DNA of 39,915 bases from NCBI GenBank assembly GCA_944349545.1, contig CALVNG010000015.1:1-39915 (forward strand), given 5' to 3'. Numbering within the stretch: the first letter of the stretch is position 1; every line of letters starts with the position of its first letter. The DNA comes from an uncultured Eubacteriales bacterium. Lineage in GTDB: Bacteria; Bacillota; Clostridia; Christensenellales; Aristaeellaceae. Under the pieces are notes generated by a model. It was given only the letters and a program-made list of their open reading frames with translations. It was not told where the DNA came from and ran no database searches. Made by a program: the position numbers and the translations under genes. This document shows, piece by piece, positions 3,438-10,850 of this stretch.

Positions 3438-4745
3438 ATGGTTCTGACCATTGCGATGGACGGCCCCGTGGGTGCGGGCAAAAGCAGCGTGGCCGACGAG
3501 GTCGCCCGGCGTCTGGGCATACTTCACCTGGACACGGGGGCGATGTACCGCGCCTTCGCCTGGATGGCGCTGAAGGAGGGTGTGGATACGAGTGATGCGC
3601 AGGCGCTGGCGGCTCTTGCCGCGAGCGTGATGCCGGAGGTGCGCTTTGAAAACGGGGCGCAGCGCACGCTGATCGGCGGCAAGGATGTCACGGATTTCAT
3701 CCGCACGCCGGAGATCAGCACGGCGGCAAGCGTGGTTTCCACGGTGCCGCAGGTGCGCAGGGCTATGGTCGCCCGTCAGCAGGAGCTGGCGCGGCATCAG
3801 AGCATGCTGCTGGACGGCCGGGACATCGGAACCCGCGTGCTTCCGAACGCCACGCTCAAAATTTTCCTGACCGCATCGGCCGAGGTAAGGGCGCGACGCC
3901 GCTTCGATGAGCTTCAAAGCAAGGGCGATCCCTCCACCTATGAGCAGGTGCTCGCGGAGGTACGCAGCCGCGACGAGCGCGACACCACCCGTGAAGCCGA
4001 CCCCCTTCGGCCCGCGGAAGACGCGCAGGTGCTCGACAGCTCGGAGATGACGCGCGAGCAGGTGGTGGAGGATGTGCTGCGCCGAGTGGCAATCCGGCAG
4101 GGGCATGCCCTGCGCCCGGAAGAACCGCTCACCCCCATGTACAGGGCGGCGCGCGTGGCGGCGGCCGTGCTGCTGACCTGCCTTTCGCCCGCCACCTATC
4201 ACCATCTGGAACGGGCCCAGCTGGATGCGCCCTACATCCTTATCGCCAATCACAATTCGCTGATGGACCCCCTGCTGGTGGCCTGGAAGTGCTATCGGTA
4301 CCAGATCCGTTTCCTGGGGAAAAAGGAGCTGGTGAAAAACCCGCTTCTGCGCTGGCTGTTTGAAAAGCTGCTGATGATCGCGGTGGACAGGCACAACATG
4401 GACATGACGGCGATGCGCGCCTGTCTGAAAACGCTGCGCGAGGGCCATTCCCTCGGCGTGTTCCCGGAGGGCACGCGTCACAAGGAGGGCGTGATGGAAC
4501 ACATGGAAAGCGGAATCGCCATGATCGCCCTGCGTAGCGGCGCCAGAATCCTGCCGGCTTACATCGCTGGGAAGCCCGGACTGTTCCGCCGCACGCATGT
4601 CTATTATGGACAGCCATTCAGCGTCAGGGATATCGCTGCCCGAGGCGTCAACCGCGAGGCCTGTCAGGAAGTCATGGAGCGGATTCAGCAGGCTTATCTG
4701 GCGCTTGAGCGGGATCATGCCGACGCGCAAAAGCAGGCAAACTGA
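3438..4745 (+). CDS. cmk: Fusion of cytidylate kinase and 1-acylglycerol-3-phosphate acyltransferase (Cmk-PlsC)
   Basis: A 435-residue protein with two complete domains. Residues 1 to about 222 are (d)CMP kinase: P-loop GPVGAGKSS near the N-terminus, LDTGAMYR, DGRDIGTRVLP and the RxxRD segment SRDERDTTRE. Residues about 230-435 are a PlsC-type acyltransferase: the catalytic NHxxxxD box with His272 and Asp277, and FPEGTR at 342-347. The first domain phosphorylates CMP and dCMP. The second adds the second acyl chain to lysophosphatidic acid, making phosphatidic acid at the membrane. In most clostridia these are two adjacent genes; here they are one ORF with no stop between them. AGGAGGGGG precedes ATG 3438. 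Confidence 0.88.
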   Translation: MVLTIAMDGPVGAGKSSVADEVARRLGILHLDTGAMYRAFAWMALKEGVDTSDAQALAALAASVMPEVRFENGAQRTLIGGKDVTDFIRTPEISTAASVVSTVPQVRRAMVARQQELARHQSMLLDGRDIGTRVLPNATLKIFLTASAEVRARRRFDELQSKGDPSTYEQVLAEVRSRDERDTTREADPLRPAEDAQVLDSSEMTREQVVEDVLRRVAIRQGHALRPEEPLTPMYRAARVAAAVLLTCLSPATYHHLERAQLDAPYILIANHNSLMDPLLVAWKCYRYQIRFLGKKELVKNPLLRWLFEKLLMIAVDRHNMDMTAMRACLKTLREGHSLGVFPEGTRHKEGVMEHMESGIAMIALRSGARILPAYIAGKPGLFRRTHVYYGQPFSVRDIAARGVNREACQEVMERIQQAYLALERDHADAQKQAN

Positions 4746-4976: not shown

Positions 4977-7010
4977 ATGCCGGTTTCGGTGGCTCGACAC
5001 GCGGGCTTCTGCATGGGGGTCAAGCGTGCGGTGGATGGAGCGGTCAAAGCCGCGCAGGAGGGAAAGTCCATCGTTTCCTTCGGCGAGTTGGCCCATAATC
5101 CCGAGGTGATCCGCCGCCTCAACGCTATCGGCATATCGGTCATCCATGAGGTGGAGCAGGCACGCGGCAAGGTGGCGCTCATCCGAAGCCATGGCGTGGC
5201 GCCGGATGTCACGGAAGCTCTTCGCCGCACCGCAGACGAGGTGATCGACCTCACATGTCCCTTTGTTGCCCGGCTCCATGACGTGGTCGCACGGTACAGC
5301 TCCGGGGGCTTGCCGGTGATTCTGGTTGGGCAGAGCGATCATCCCGAAGTTATCGGCACCATCGGATATGTCCGCGGAAAGGTCTACACCGTTCATGACC
5401 GCGAAGAGGCTGCCGAGCTGCCGGAAATGGAGAGCGCGCTGGCTGTCTCGCAGACCACCTTTCCCCATGAGCGCTGGGAGGAAATCCTGCCCGTTTTGCA
5501 CAGCCGGGTGAAGAACCTTACCGTTCAGGACACCATCTGCACCGCCACGGCCCTCCGGCAGAACGAGGCGCGCGAGCTGGCCGAAAAGGTGGACGCCATG
5601 CTGGTGGTGGGCGGCCTGGGCAGCGCCAACACCCGCAAGCTGTACGAAACGTGCAAGCGCATTTGCGGGCGCACCCTTTTGGTAGAGCGTGCGGCGGATA
5701 TACCGCCGGGCTTTGCGAATATCCATTCGGAATCCATTGGAATTACCGCCGGCGCGAGCACGCCGGATTGGTCACTTAAGGAGGTTGTCACACGCATGAC
5801 TGACAAGGAACAATTGGACCGGCAGGTTTCCACCGAGGAGGCGGAAAAGGACAGCTTTATGGCTGATGTGGAAGCGACTCTGGTCAAGATCAGGCCCGGG
5901 CAGACCGTGAAGGGAACCGTGGTGCAGATCACCGACGACGAAGTCTGTGTCAACATCGGTTTCAAGAGCGACGGGCTGATCAAGCGCGAGGACCTGGTGA
6001 CGGAGGATGTCAAACTGGGCGACGAAATCGAAGTGGAGGTCGTCAAGGTCAACGACGGCGAAGGCAACGTCTTGCTGTCGCAGCGCAACATCTTGAACCG
6101 TAAGGCCTTCGCGGAGCTTGTCCAAAAGCACGAGAACAACGAGTATGTCGAGGGCGTGGGCAAGGAGGTCGTCAAGGGCGGCCTGATCTGCACGGTCAAC
6201 GGCATTCGCGCGTTCGTGCCTGCGTCGCAGCTCTCCAACCGCTACGTTGAGAAGATCGGCGACTTCGTGGGCCAGACCCTCAAGCTCAAGATCATCGAGA
6301 TGGATGAGCAGAAGCGCCGCATCGTGGCCAGCCGCCGCGCGGTGGTGCGTGAGGAAGCCGCCGCAAAGAAGGCCGAGGCCTGGGCCCGTCTCCAGGAGGG
6401 CGAGGTCGTGCACGGCATCGTGCGCCGTCTGACCGACTTCGGCGCTTTCGTGGACCTGGGCGGCGTAGACGGCCTGATTCATGTGACCGATCTGAGCTGG
6501 GCGCATGTCAAGCATCCTTCCGAGATCGTCTCCCCCGACCAGGAAGTGGACGTGAAGATCCTCAGCCTCGATCCGGAGCGCGAGCGCATCCAGCTTGGCC
6601 TCAAGCAGCTTCAGCCCAAGCCCTGGGATATGGCTCCCGAAAAGTATCCCGCCGGGGCTGTGGTTACGGGCAAGGTGGTCCGCATCACTACGTTCGGCGC
6701 CTTTGTGGAGCTTGAGCCCGGCATCGACGGCCTGGTGCACATCAGCCAGTGCGCAGCGACCCGCATCAACAAGGTGGAGGATGCGGTCAATGTGGGTGAT
6801 GTGGTCAATGTCAAGGTGCTCAACATCGATCCTGAAGCCAAGCGCATCAGCCTGAGCATCCGCGCATTGCTGGAGCCCGAACCCGCTCCCGTGGAGGAAG
6901 CGCCCCAGCCTGTTTACGAGGATGACGGCGCGGAGGCCGTGCCGGTGGACATTGAGGCTGTTGGCGCGGCTCTGGAAGCCGAGGCTGCTCAGAACGAGAC
7001 CAACGAGTAA
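4977..7010 (+). CDS. ispH: Fusion of IspH (HMBPP reductase) and ribosomal protein S1
   Basis: A 677-residue fusion. Residues 1 to about 275 are IspH, the iron-sulfur enzyme for the last step of the MEP isoprenoid pathway. The three cluster cysteines are at 12 (GFCMGVKRA), 94 (DLTCPFV) and 188 (DTICTAT), with SHG, TTF and ITAGASTP motifs. Residues about 290-630 hold four S1 RNA-binding repeats (near 300-370, 385-455, 470-545 and 555-630), ending in an acidic Ala/Glu-rich tail. IspH-S1 fusions are known in Clostridia. AAGGAGG at 5778-5784, followed after 11 bases by in-frame ATG 5796 at the domain junction, could also give free S1 of about 404 residues. A strong terminator follows. Confidence 0.93.
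5778..5798 (+). promoter_or_regulatory. rpsA: Possible internal ribosome binding site and start for free S1
   Basis: Inside the fusion gene, a perfect AAGGAGG (5778-5784) stands 11 bases before in-frame ATG 5796 (codon 274). This is exactly where IspH ends and the S1 part begins ([10 protein letters not shown]). Part of the match is forced by the LKEVV coding sequence, so chance is possible. Confidence 0.45.
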
Positions 7011-7181: not shown

Positions 7182-8197
7182 GTGCGCTACGCGATGCTTT
7201 TGAAGCCGCATCCAAACGTTCGTTATCGCCAATCCCTGCAAAAGCTGGCATTGATCGAACTGGAATGCATCCTTGATGCCTGGAATGTTGCCTGCGAACG
7301 GCCAAGGGTGGAATATCTGGCGAACGAGCCTTTTATCGTATTTGACGCGCAGGAGCTGGAAGCGGCGGCTTGGGAGGCAGTCTCAGGACATTCGGCCATC
7401 TGTTTGGCTGCGAGGCTTCGGGAGGACGGAACGCTGCAGCCGTTGCGCCGCAACCCCCCGGCTGGATGCCGGAGGATCTGCCCCATGTGCTCAAATATAA
7501 AGGGAAAACCAACGCGGACTTCACGTATCTGATGTTGCACTGCGCCAGGTCGGCGTCTGCGTTTGCGCGTGAGCCGGGCTCGCTGAGCGTGCTGGACCCC
7601 ATGTGCGGGAAGGGCACGACGCTGATGTGCGCTTTGTGCGAAAACTACAATGCAATCGGCGTTGATATGGACGCGAAGGCGCTTCGGGAAGCGGAAGATT
7701 ACCTGGCGAGGTCGCTGAAACTGCATCGCGTCAAGCATCGCCGCACATCGGGTGCGCTGACTCTGCCATGGGGAGGAAGCGCCAGGTGGAGCGAGTACGC
7801 GCTTGCGCCGGACGCTCAAACCATGCGCGCAAGCCCGCTTTCCCTTCGCCTGATTCATGGGGACGCGGGCGGACTGGCGGCGCTGGTCCGTCCCCAAAGC
7901 TGTCACTTGGCGATATGCGACCTGCCTTATGGCGTGCAGCACGCGCCCAGGGAAGGCGGCACGGTTTCCTCGCTGAGCAGGCTTGTCGAGCGCGTTTTGC
8001 CCGGTTGCGTACACGCGCTCAAAAAGGGCGGAGCCGTGGCGTTTGCGTTTAATCTCAACACCTTGCGTCGTTCCGAGGTTTCCGCGCAAATGGAGAGGGC
8101 AGGGCTGGAGGTCATGAGTCATCCGCCGTATGACGACTTTTCCCACTGGGTAGAACAGGCGGTTGACCGGGACGTGGTGATTGCACGAAAGGTATGA
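7182..8197 (+). pseudogene. TRM11-like SAM-dependent methyltransferase gene with a frameshift
   Basis: The gene opens with GTG 7182 (AAGAGG seven bases upstream) and reads MRYAMLLKPHPNVRYRQSL. It runs to a C6 tract at 7454-7459, then continues one frame back as GWMPEDLPHVLKYKGKTN to 8197. One extra C would give a single 338-residue protein. The second part is a class I methyltransferase of the UPF0020/TRM11 type, with motif I VLDPMCGKGTTLMCAL and catalytic motif ICDLPYG. Such enzymes modify guanosines or adenines in tRNA or rRNA. The break may be a true mutation, a homopolymer sequencing error, or a programmed -1 shift, since C CCC CCG fits the slippery heptamer pattern. It lies 50 bp before rho and may share its transcript. 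Confidence 0.75.
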
Positions 8198-8247
8198 CCG
8201 CCGGAAGTGATGCGGGCTTTTTGTTGATTGGGTAAGGAGGGTTCAAA

Positions 8248-10275
8248 TTGCAGAACGCACAGCTGCAAGCGATGACGGTTGTTCAGCTGCGAAAGCTTGC
8301 AAAGGAAAACGGCGTGAAGTTGAGCGCGGGAATTGACAAGTCCGGAATCGTGGCTCGCCTCTCGGAGGTGCTGGCCGATGAGCCGTCCAATCAATCGGCG
8401 GCGCCGCAGCCGGTTGAGGCGCTGGTGGAGCCGGCTGCGCCGGAACTGACGGAAACGGCTCGTGAAGCGGTGCCGGTGCTGGAACCCGACCCGATAAAAA
8501 CGGATGAAAAGCCCGCTGAGACGCAGGAAAAGCTGCAGGAGGCGGCTCTTTCCGCGGATGTAACCGCTGTCTCGCCTGGCGGCTTGGGATTTCGGCCCTG
8601 GAACAACCCGCAGGAACAGAGCGGCTTCCGCCCGGTTTATCGACAGGCTTGGCAGGCACGCAGCACGTCGCGCGATAACGCGCAGACGCCTGCCTGGCAG
8701 CAGCGCGCCGGGAGCACGGTCAACCGCTTCGGGCCGCCTGTACGCCCGGCGCCCGTGAAGCAGGAGGAAGCCCAGGAGCCGCGCAGACAGGCGTCGGAGT
8801 ATTCGCGTCCGCCGGTTCAGGAAAACGTGCCCAAGCTGGATGGATATCGGCTGGGCTACCGCGCTGCGCCGCAGCGCACACCCTATCAGAACCGCGGCGA
8901 GTATGGCGCTCGTGAGCAGGGCTATGGCGGATATCAGCAGCGCGGTGGATATCAGCAAAGCGGCTACAGGCCTGCTGGCAACTTTGGATACCAGCAGCAG
9001 CGCAGCGGCTATCAGCCTCCCGTCTCGGAAGGACATTACAACGACGCGCTTTATCGCATGGCGCGCGATCCGCAATTTGCCGCTCAAGCCGAGGAAGGCC
9101 AGATTCCCGATCTGCTGAAGGTGCAGGAAGGGGAGCCCGCCAGCGGCATCCTGGAGATCCTCCCGGACGGTTACGGTTTTTTGCGCGGCCATACGCTGCT
9201 GCCCGGGAAAAAGGATATCTATGTTTCTATGGCCCAGATCCGTCGCTTTGGCCTGCGCACAGGCGACTCCGTGGAAGGTACGGCACGTGCACAGCGAGAC
9301 AGCGACAAATTTGCCGCGTTGCTGACAGTAGATCGTCTCAACGGCCATGAGCCGGTGGAGAATCCGGACCGGCTTTCCTTTGACGAGCTGGTGCCTGTGT
9401 ATCCCAACCGGCGCATCGTGCTGGAAAGCGAACAGGACCACGAGGACATGGCCATCCGTCTCGTGGACCTGATCGCGCCCATCGGCTTTGGTCAGCGTGC
9501 GATGATCGTCGCTCCGCCCGACAGCGGACGGCTATTGATGCTCCGGGATATCTGCCGCGCGATCAAGCGAAACGACGCCGACGCCGAAGTGCTGATGCTG
9601 CTGATTGACATCGCTCCGGAAGAAGTGACGGAAATCCGTGAATCGGTAGACGCAGAAGTATTCGCCTCCACCTTCGCCGACGCGCCCGAAACGCAGACGC
9701 GCGTGAGCGAAACCATGCTGGAGCGCGCTCAGCGACTGGTGGAGGACGGCAGGAATGTGGTCATCCTGCTGGACAGCCTCACCAAGCTGACGCGCGCCTA
9801 TCAGGCGGCGCTGGTGCAGGGCGGACGCCCCATGACCAACACCGTAACCCCTGCGGCGCTGGTGCGCCCCAAGCGCTTCTTTGGCGCGGCACGCAATACC
9901 CGTGACGCTGGAAGTCTGACAGTGGTCGCCACCATCGCGGTGGAAACCGGCTCGCGCGTGGACGATATCATCTTCGAAGAATTCAAGGGTACGGCCAATA
10001 TGGAGCTGTTCCTGTGCCGACATCAGGCCAGCGATCCGGTCTATCCGATGATTGATTTGCAGCTCAGCGGCACCAAAAAGGACGATATGCTCCTGAGCGA
10101 CGAGCAGAAGGAAGGCCTGCGGACGATTCGAAAGGTCCTGGCCTCCACCACCAACGGCGAAGCCGTGGTGCAGCTGATTGACATGATGCAGAAAACCCGC
10201 TGCAACGCGGATCTGCTCAATCGTCTGCAGGATTGGATTGCCCTGTGGGAAAAGAGCGGATATCTGAAGCGCTGA
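8248..10275 (+). CDS. rho: Rho-family transcription termination factor with degenerate ATPase site
   Basis: A 675-residue protein starting at TTG 8248, chosen because TAAGGAGG lies seven bases upstream and no upstream ATG fits. Residues 1-36 are a Rho N-terminal helical domain (VVQLRKLAKENGV). About 240 low-complexity residues follow, including a Gly/Tyr/Gln-rich block (QGYGGYQQRGGYQQ) near 230-260. Next come the cold-shock RNA-binding fold (GYGFLRG, DIYVSMAQIRRFGLRTGD) and the RecA-like core. The core is unusual. Walker A APPKAGKT is replaced by APPDSGRL (422-429), the catalytic Glu of IDERPEE is Ile455, and the SGTRKEE arginine is Lys. RNA-binding motifs and PKRFFGAARN remain. It may bind RNA without working as a normal helicase. 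Confidence 0.9.
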   Translation: MQNAQLQAMTVVQLRKLAKENGVKLSAGIDKSGIVARLSEVLADEPSNQSAAPQPVEALVEPAAPELTETAREAVPVLEPDPIKTDEKPAETQEKLQEAALSADVTAVSPGGLGFRPWNNPQEQSGFRPVYRQAWQARSTSRDNAQTPAWQQRAGSTVNRFGPPVRPAPVKQEEAQEPRRQASEYSRPPVQENVPKLDGYRLGYRAAPQRTPYQNRGEYGAREQGYGGYQQRGGYQQSGYRPAGNFGYQQQRSGYQPPVSEGHYNDALYRMARDPQFAAQAEEGQIPDLLKVQEGEPASGILEILPDGYGFLRGHTLLPGKKDIYVSMAQIRRFGLRTGDSVEGTARAQRDSDKFAALLTVDRLNGHEPVENPDRLSFDELVPVYPNRRIVLESEQDHEDMAIRLVDLIAPIGFGQRAMIVAPPDSGRLLMLRDICRAIKRNDADAEVLMLLIDIAPEEVTEIRESVDAEVFASTFADAPETQTRVSETMLERAQRLVEDGRNVVILLDSLTKLTRAYQAALVQGGRPMTNTVTPAALVRPKRFFGAARNTRDAGSLTVVATIAVETGSRVDDIIFEEFKGTANMELFLCRHQASDPVYPMIDLQLSGTKKDDMLLSDEQKEGLRTIRKVLASTTNGEAVVQLIDMMQKTRCNADLLNRLQDWIALWEKSGYLKR

Positions 10276-10295: not shown

Positions 10296-10327
10296 GCCCC
10301 GCCAGTCTTTTGCGGCGGGGCGCTTTT
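10296..10327 (+). terminator. Terminator after rho
   Basis: GCCCCGCC (10296-10303) pairs with GGCGGGGC (10314-10321) around a loop, followed by GCTTTT. Confidence 0.85.
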
Positions 10328-10850
10328 AGCCTTTTTGGCAGGTCGCTTGACTGTCCTCGTGCAGAGTATTAACGAACCTTCATTCGCTGTGCGGTGTCCT
10401 TCTCTTGCTTCACCAGTCCAGGCTTTTTAACGATAAAAAGCCATGCCGGCATATGCCGACACGGCTCAGTTTGCTGATAAAGCGCGGGGTGCAGGGGCTG
10501 CCCCGGTCGCTCAATCATTCGCGCTTCCCTGACTTTCGCAAATATCGGCGTTCTGCGCACTGGCCGCGCGCAGCCCTTGTATTTGCTCACACCTGCGGGT
10601 CGCTTTGCCGCCTTTGGCGGCAACAGCCCGCCGGGCTGTCGCTTCCCTCCGGTGCGCCAAGCCCTTATGCCGCAGAATTTTCTGCGAGCGTTGCGAGCGT
10701 CCGAAGGACGCATGAAACGCGGCTTTCCCCAACATCAGGGGTTTTTCAACGGTCCGAGCCATGCCGACATGGCCAAAAACGCTGACAAGACGCTATAGAA
10801 CCACATTCTAAGCCTGTTTCCGCAGCCTCAAACCGGCATCGAAAAAGAGA
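10328..10850. repeat. Gene-free stretch, probable dispersed intergenic repeat
   Basis: About 520 bp without a convincing gene on either strand. It holds a perfect 9-bp hairpin (10421-10442, GGCTTTTTA with its complement) and the palindrome CGGCATATGCCG. The motif GCCATGCCGRCAT occurs near both edges (about 10440 and 10759). Overlapping frames give arginine-rich nonsense products on the minus strand. Similar spurious products (for example PKAAKRPAGVSKYKG) are familiar to me from many gut clostridial genomes, which suggests a multicopy repeat. That last point is from memory and the copy number cannot be seen here. Confidence 0.4.

Follow-up and report, generated by a model that had tools for sequence, protein, structure and literature searches.

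A Rho factor that has lost its catalytic residues and keeps most of its primary RNA-binding site in an uncultured clostridial bacterium

Results

The rho gene and its neighbourhood

The window, i.e. the whole stretch of 39,915 nucleotides analysed here, carries a rho orthologue of 675 amino acids (8248..10275; all features described below are on the forward strand), recognized by its open reading frame, profile matches and alignment, in which catalytic residues are lost. The gene begins with a TTG start codon, 7 nt upstream of which lies the ribosome-binding site AAGGAGG (8234..8240). Downstream of the gene, a hairpin with a T-rich tail (GCTTTTAG, 10296..10329) was found by eye, with an 8-bp GC stem (10296-10303 and 10314-10321) and a 10-nt loop; it is absent from the output of the consensus terminator scan, since the scan permits loops of 3-8 nt only. 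These features agree with the first-pass annotation, which had described a full-length gene with a ribosome site and a terminator.

Directly upstream of rho lies a methyltransferase gene (7182..8197, named by eye) split over two frames. The two parts of this methyltransferase-like gene (7182-7532 and 7370-8197) match one continuous open reading frame in relatives (e.g. L039, 6919-7944), and the split is a frameshift or an assembly error. Further upstream we observed by eye a cytidylate kinase-acyltransferase fusion (3438-4745) and an IspH-ribosomal protein S1 fusion (4977-7010).

The protein starts with a helical, Rho_N-like segment (residues 1-45, 8248..8382) that was recognized by eye and with which several relatives open as well; the Pfam Rho_N model did not match it at 1e-3. 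It is followed by a presumed linker rich in P/Q/R/G/Y and D/E (residues about 46-290, 8383..9117), whose composition suggests disorder, and by the Rho RNA-binding OB domain PF07497 (residues 299-369, 9142..9354; 98 bits, above the cut-off of 27), where most primary-site residues are conserved. The Pfam search also returned the ATP-synthase alpha/beta nucleotide-binding domain. Among the full-length models, the protein scored above the cut-off with the NCBIfam Rho model NF006886 (457.7 bits, cut-off 315) and below it with the Rho2 short paralogue model NF041509 (366.6 bits, cut-off 628) and with the rho model TIGR00767 (454.3 bits, cut-off 509.45), the last of which is missed also by some catalytically intact sequences, e.g. 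those of G048 and G053. By sequence, the best-matching proteins of solved structure are the Thermotoga and E. coli Rho proteins, and a Rho fold was predicted confidently for the window protein, with the Q-loop as a low-confidence spot. Judged from its sequence, the protein is a Rho by descent and, by its catalytic hallmarks, not a Rho ATPase.

Loss of the catalytic residues

Residues were numbered by alignment to E. coli K-12 Rho. The former Walker A motif reads APPDSGRL in place of APPKAGKT (9511..9534), where D425, R428 and L429 stand for K181, K184 and T185. The catalytic glutamate E211 and the arginine valve R212 are replaced by I455 and A456 (9610..9615), R353 by P597 (10036..10038) and the arginine finger R366 by K610 (10075..10077), and the E. 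coli motifs IDERPEE, AEKRVFP and SGTRKEE have become IDIAPEE, ASDPVYP and SGTKKDD. The substitutions in the P-loop, at the glutamate and at the arginine finger had been proposed at first pass, and the alignment confirms each of them. In Rho, K181, K184, T185 and R366 are reported to contact the nucleotide phosphates, and the contact between R353 and W381 to act in ring opening (PMC11829017).

Other parts are retained. The Walker B strand (VVILLDSLTKLTR, 9757..9795) keeps D265 in LLDSL and has a lysine (K513) at the position of R269, and the R-loop ETGSR (9943..9957) carries an arginine for K326, as do intact relatives. The Q-loop (LVQGGRPMTNTVT, 9811..9849) has an arginine at 283, again like intact relatives, and N-T for G287-G288. 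GYGFLR, YVS.AQIRR, the PKRFFGAARN block (9868..9897), TGS[K/R] and EEFKGTANMEL are kept; GYGFLR, the PKRFFGAARN block and EEFKGTANMEL, already listed as retained when the gene was first annotated, were seen again in the alignment.

Distribution in the genus, family and order

The catalytic losses are common to all 17 genomes of the window's genus that were returned by the search, which rules out a one-off assembly error. Among the 16 genus sequences with an unbroken gene, K181, K184, E211, R212, R353 and R366 are gone without exception, and T185 is lost in 15 and replaced by serine in one. Lysine stands for the arginine finger and for R269 in 16/16 sequences each, and the Walker B D265 is kept in 16/16. 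The P-loop columns are variable, with D, G, E or Q at 181 and R, G or S at 184; an invariant P-loop lysine or an acid at 211 was not found in the alignment columns of the genus. In the seventeenth genome (G016), rho lies in two frames with the same loss signature, so that a full-length open frame is kept in 16 of 17.

TIGR00767 was searched against 60 relatives and then against 300 genomes of the family. Any match at 0.001, possibly including F1-ATPase subunits, was found in 292 of these 300, a match over the cut-off in 109, and low-scoring Rhos occur in many genera. We examined 63 rho sequences from 27 family genera (two are pieces of one broken gene and two come from one genome); the genera were partly picked for low scores, and the sample is not random. 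All eight checked residues are kept in 11 of the 27 genera (one sequence each), 15 show catalytic losses in every sequence, and genus g54 is mixed, with one intact sequence and one with two losses. The sister genus of the window's genus, g14, has kept GKT/GKS and E211 and lost K181, R353 and R366; by these residues it is a half-way form. Two single-contig genomes of genus g50 (G196, G216) carry Q181, K184, A185, V211, T212, G353 and K366, K184 being retained in all six g50 sequences. In genus g7 (L179, L180, L055), the C-terminal half of Rho is almost unrecognisable and mainly the RNA-binding region can be aligned. One genome of another genus (G019) gave weak matches only and no rho sequence, and G087 (genus g72) has two diverged rho copies on separate contigs (L176, L181), both catalytically degenerate.

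In a different family of the same order, the catalytic site of G042 is also broken. Across the order, 97 of 395 genomes (≥90% complete) have no Rho-model match at 1e-30, a line that would also exclude strongly decayed rho copies; of the 20 unmatched genomes listed, seven belong to family f26 and another seven to f29. Family f14 holds a mirror image of the window protein: L061 (G048) has intact catalytic residues and an eroded RNA-binding domain (TDKFWFVR, FMHLSFVNR), and several further f14 genomes score very low with the Rho model.

Selection on the degenerate Rho

We compared pooled pN/pS between the 16 genus sequences and six of the 11 intact-genus sequences (g6, g11, g16, g17, g18, g20), always with the pS of the core (E. 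coli 50-412) as the denominator. The core gave similar values in the genus and in intact relatives (0.25 vs 0.27), and the N-terminal domain the same value (0.275). The P-loop evolves about seven times faster in the genus (0.65 vs 0.09), and higher values were also found for residues 209-213 (0.16 vs 0.00), the R353 region (0.58 vs 0.17) and the Q-loop (0.33 vs 0.13). The R-loop block (0.106 vs 0.117), the Walker B strand (0.039 vs 0.129) and PKRFFGAARN (0.028 vs 0.045) were lower, PKRFFGAARN being under the tightest constraint among the stretches measured in the genus. In g50 (six sequences), release was slight, with 0.26 for the P-loop and 0.19 for the core. The dN/dS of rho was 0.023 between the window and G006; of the 171 pairs of the genus and g14, 110 had a dS below 1.5, and their median dN/dS was 0.175. 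The N-terminal domain of the genus is 50% identical to that of E. coli Rho, compared with 53% for the 11 intact relatives, and identity of the C-terminal domain falls from 57% in intact relatives to 41% in the genus.

These values argue strongly for purifying selection on an apparently dead ATPase. The alignment, the selection data and the confident Rho-fold model thus support the original description of the gene as coding for an apparently dead ATPase with an intact RNA-binding fold that is not simply decayed.

RNA-contacting parts and NusG

Of 13 positions of the Rho primary site that were compared, most are alike in the genus and in intact relatives. R88 has a reported role in RNA binding and is retained in 16/16 genus sequences; at K115, named in the same source (PMC11018626), intact relatives have Tyr or Phe, and the genus has mostly Thr, Val or Ala. 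The Q-loop, which belongs to the central RNA site, is not simply kept: its two glycines, present in intact relatives, are N287 and T288 in 16/16 unbroken genus sequences, and its constraint is lower than in intact relatives.

NusG is present in nine of ten genomes searched and missing from G014. An alignment of its C-terminal domain from six degenerate-rho genomes and one intact-rho genome (G023) shows similar sequences. We also considered an ATP-free condensate formed via the presumed disordered region and rejected it: some intact family members have linkers of similar composition, so the linker does not mark the dead clade.

Copy number and history of the gene

A profile search of the window's genome, which is 93.1% complete, found no Rho besides the window protein; two further, weak family matches resemble F1-ATPase beta and alpha by sequence. 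In each of the single-contig genomes G196 and G216, a single rho was found at E up to 1e-12, and it is degenerate.

Among the 16 other loci of the genus that were examined, 15 have a homologue of the upstream gene next to rho; the exception is G010, whose contig begins just before rho. Such a homologue also adjoins intact rho in genera g2, g6, g11, g17, g18 and g20, and in several other genera, intact and degenerate, no such neighbour of rho was found. As the same neighbour precedes dead and intact rho, the ancestral Rho has changed in place; this synteny rules out a recent rho paralogue.

In a rho tree of 86 sequences (trait columns masked; g7, G016 and one short sequence left out), the fewest changes were six for K181, six for K184, nine for T185, five for E211, four for R212, five for R353 and six for R366, counts that do not separate loss from gain. 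Because diverged rho sequences can mislead their own tree, we built a uvrA tree from 29 genomes, on which the distribution of intact and degenerate forms needs at least three changes and loss of K184 or E211 at least six.

Purine bias of genes

Bacilli that lost rho are reported to show a weaker purine bias of their genes (PMC13323073). With home-made gene calls, which look poor in some genomes (G032, G102), the purine excess over the sampled DNA was 0.038 in genomes with a dead Rho (11), 0.013 in intermediate ones (4) and 0.030 in intact ones of the family (10). Homology-supported genes gave 0.035, 0.015 and 0.024, respectively (dead vs intact, Mann-Whitney p = 0.19). G107 (g54), with the checked residues intact, was kept apart and gave 0.016 and 0.036 in the two gene sets. 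The purine excess of uvrA was 0.057 in dead (12), 0.046 in intermediate (4), 0.024 in intact family (7) and 0.077 in intact order genomes (6). A weaker bias in dead-Rho genomes was thus not found, either in genome-wide genes or in uvrA. Third-position purines differed in the predicted direction without reaching significance (0.426 dead vs 0.476 intact, p = 0.06). The rho core also leaned in the predicted direction (0.065 in 12 intact family sequences vs 0.017 in 50 others), although this comparison concerns one gene and is confounded by its own amino-acid changes.

The purine excess of family genes is low even with an intact Rho, about 0.02-0.03 vs 0.087 in other clostridia, where the latter value comes from a different gene set (147 genes of GC above 0.5, pooled from rho regions). 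Since the bias is weak across the whole family, the test has low power and does not demonstrate Rho inactivity; we see no clear genomic sign of termination either lost or persisting.

Discussion

From the residues lost we infer that the window Rho is unable to hydrolyse ATP. It is probably also unable to bind it, and would therefore not translocate. The best reading of the sequence data is a motor-dead Rho that would bind RNA and may form a non-translocating ring, as had been suggested at first pass. It seems fairly probable to us that the lineage's own Rho has stayed in place, lost its ATPase and been selected for what remains, serving as a passive RNA clamp or as a factor associated with RNA polymerase and NusG. 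Through the primary site of its OB fold, such a protein could still bind nascent RNA that is rich in pyrimidines; it may also assemble a ring, and as a passive clamp it could mark, pause or shield the RNA, or stall the polymerase without motor force. A broader version, which we put forward only tentatively, is that the motor was lost repeatedly in one family and that the surviving sole Rho may be a stable, ATP-free RNA-binding regulator acting by clamping, pausing or polymerase trapping. Several observations count against the clamp, among them the following: the Q-loop glycines are lost and the Q-loop is under relaxed constraint in the genus, the g50 P-loop evolves barely faster than the core and keeps K184 in 6/6 sequences, and purine bias is not weaker in dead-Rho genomes.

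The serious main rival is slow decay, in which Rho is dispensable, the motor was lost first, and the residual constraint is transient or reflects avoidance of a toxic misfolded or dominant-negative protein. With 97 of 395 order genomes unmatched at 1e-30, a set that would include strongly decayed copies, Rho is often dispensable in the order. In the family, 109 of 300 genomes match over the Rho cut-off, and the family ranges from intact to almost unrecognisable sequences; the much further decay in g7 and the broken gene of G016 would be expected of a dispensable gene. However, one open full-length frame persists in 16 of 17 genus genomes, the core pN/pS equals that of intact relatives, and some blocks are more conserved in the genus than in intact sequences, which makes decay an unlikely, though by no means negligible, explanation.

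The boldest possibility, by analogy with allosteric models for E. coli, is ATP-independent termination, in which the degenerate Rho would stand by on RNA polymerase and inactivate it without translocation. The literature on E. coli Rho discusses both stand-by (polymerase-first) and allosteric routes (PMC8964686), and the N-terminal domain and nusG are kept. Yet M. tuberculosis Rho, once proposed to be motor-free, reportedly depends on a competent ATPase site (PMC4499133), and ring opening and closure in E. coli are described as controlled by nucleotides in the very pocket that is lost here (PMC11829017); we therefore rate this route as improbable.

That residues were misassigned or substituted by others, and the enzyme is active, is very improbable. 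The retained Walker B aspartate, the lysines at the arginine finger and R269 (16/16 each), which could leave a basic finger, and the GKT/GKS and E211 of sister genus g14 speak for it, but the pairwise alignments with Thermotoga and E. coli Rho are gapless from the P-loop through the arginine-finger motif, and the variable P-loop columns offer no invariant lysine, nor position 211 an acid. Least credible of all is that the protein antagonizes another, true Rho or serves as its decoy: mixed rings could in principle be poisoned, but a second Rho was found neither in the 93.1%-complete genome of the window nor in the two single-contig g50 genomes with a degenerate copy, so that of the first-pass interpretation the dead ATPase with an intact fold is supported and the decoy is not.

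An alignment spanning more than 1200 species is reported to show most key Rho residues conserved throughout the bacterial kingdom (PMC4499133), and high conservation of the catalytic residues is described for divergent Rho factors (PMC8828861). Our literature search, whose coverage left out most subscription papers, did not turn up any natural case of a sole Rho that is catalytically dead. The sequences studied here suggest that catalytic residues erode stepwise and in separate lineages within one family, with half-way forms such as g14. Neither a Rho annotation nor the presence of rho in a genome survey then implies Rho-dependent termination. If such a protein still has a function, it would reveal the contributions of Rho other than translocation, separate RNA and polymerase engagement from the motor in nature, and bear on whether termination needs motor force or polymerase binding alone. 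The only Rho found in this uncultured clostridial lineage may thus be a natural test of what a motor-less Rho can do.

With E. coli and Thermotoga Rho, the window protein shares descent, domain order, predicted fold, most primary RNA-site residues, the R-loop and the PKRFFGAARN and EEFKGT blocks, and its gene shares a neighbour with intact rho of the family; it differs from them in the loss of Walker A, the catalytic glutamate, the arginine valve, R353 and the arginine finger and in the replacement of the Q-loop glycines. It resembles non-catalytic RecA-fold ring subunits such as F1-ATPase alpha in being a ring-fold subunit without hydrolysis. F1-ATPase alpha, however, keeps its P-loop and works beside the catalytic beta subunit, whereas the window Rho lacks a P-loop and no other Rho-like subunit was found in its genome. 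M. tuberculosis Rho is likewise unusually large and has poor motor activity but, unlike the window Rho, is described as retaining the key catalytic residues and as a proven motor (PMC4499133, PMC8828861). Finally, the long low-complexity insertion recalls Bacteroides thetaiotaomicron Rho with its phase-separating disordered region, which, in contrast to the window Rho, is published as an active terminator (PMC13269538).
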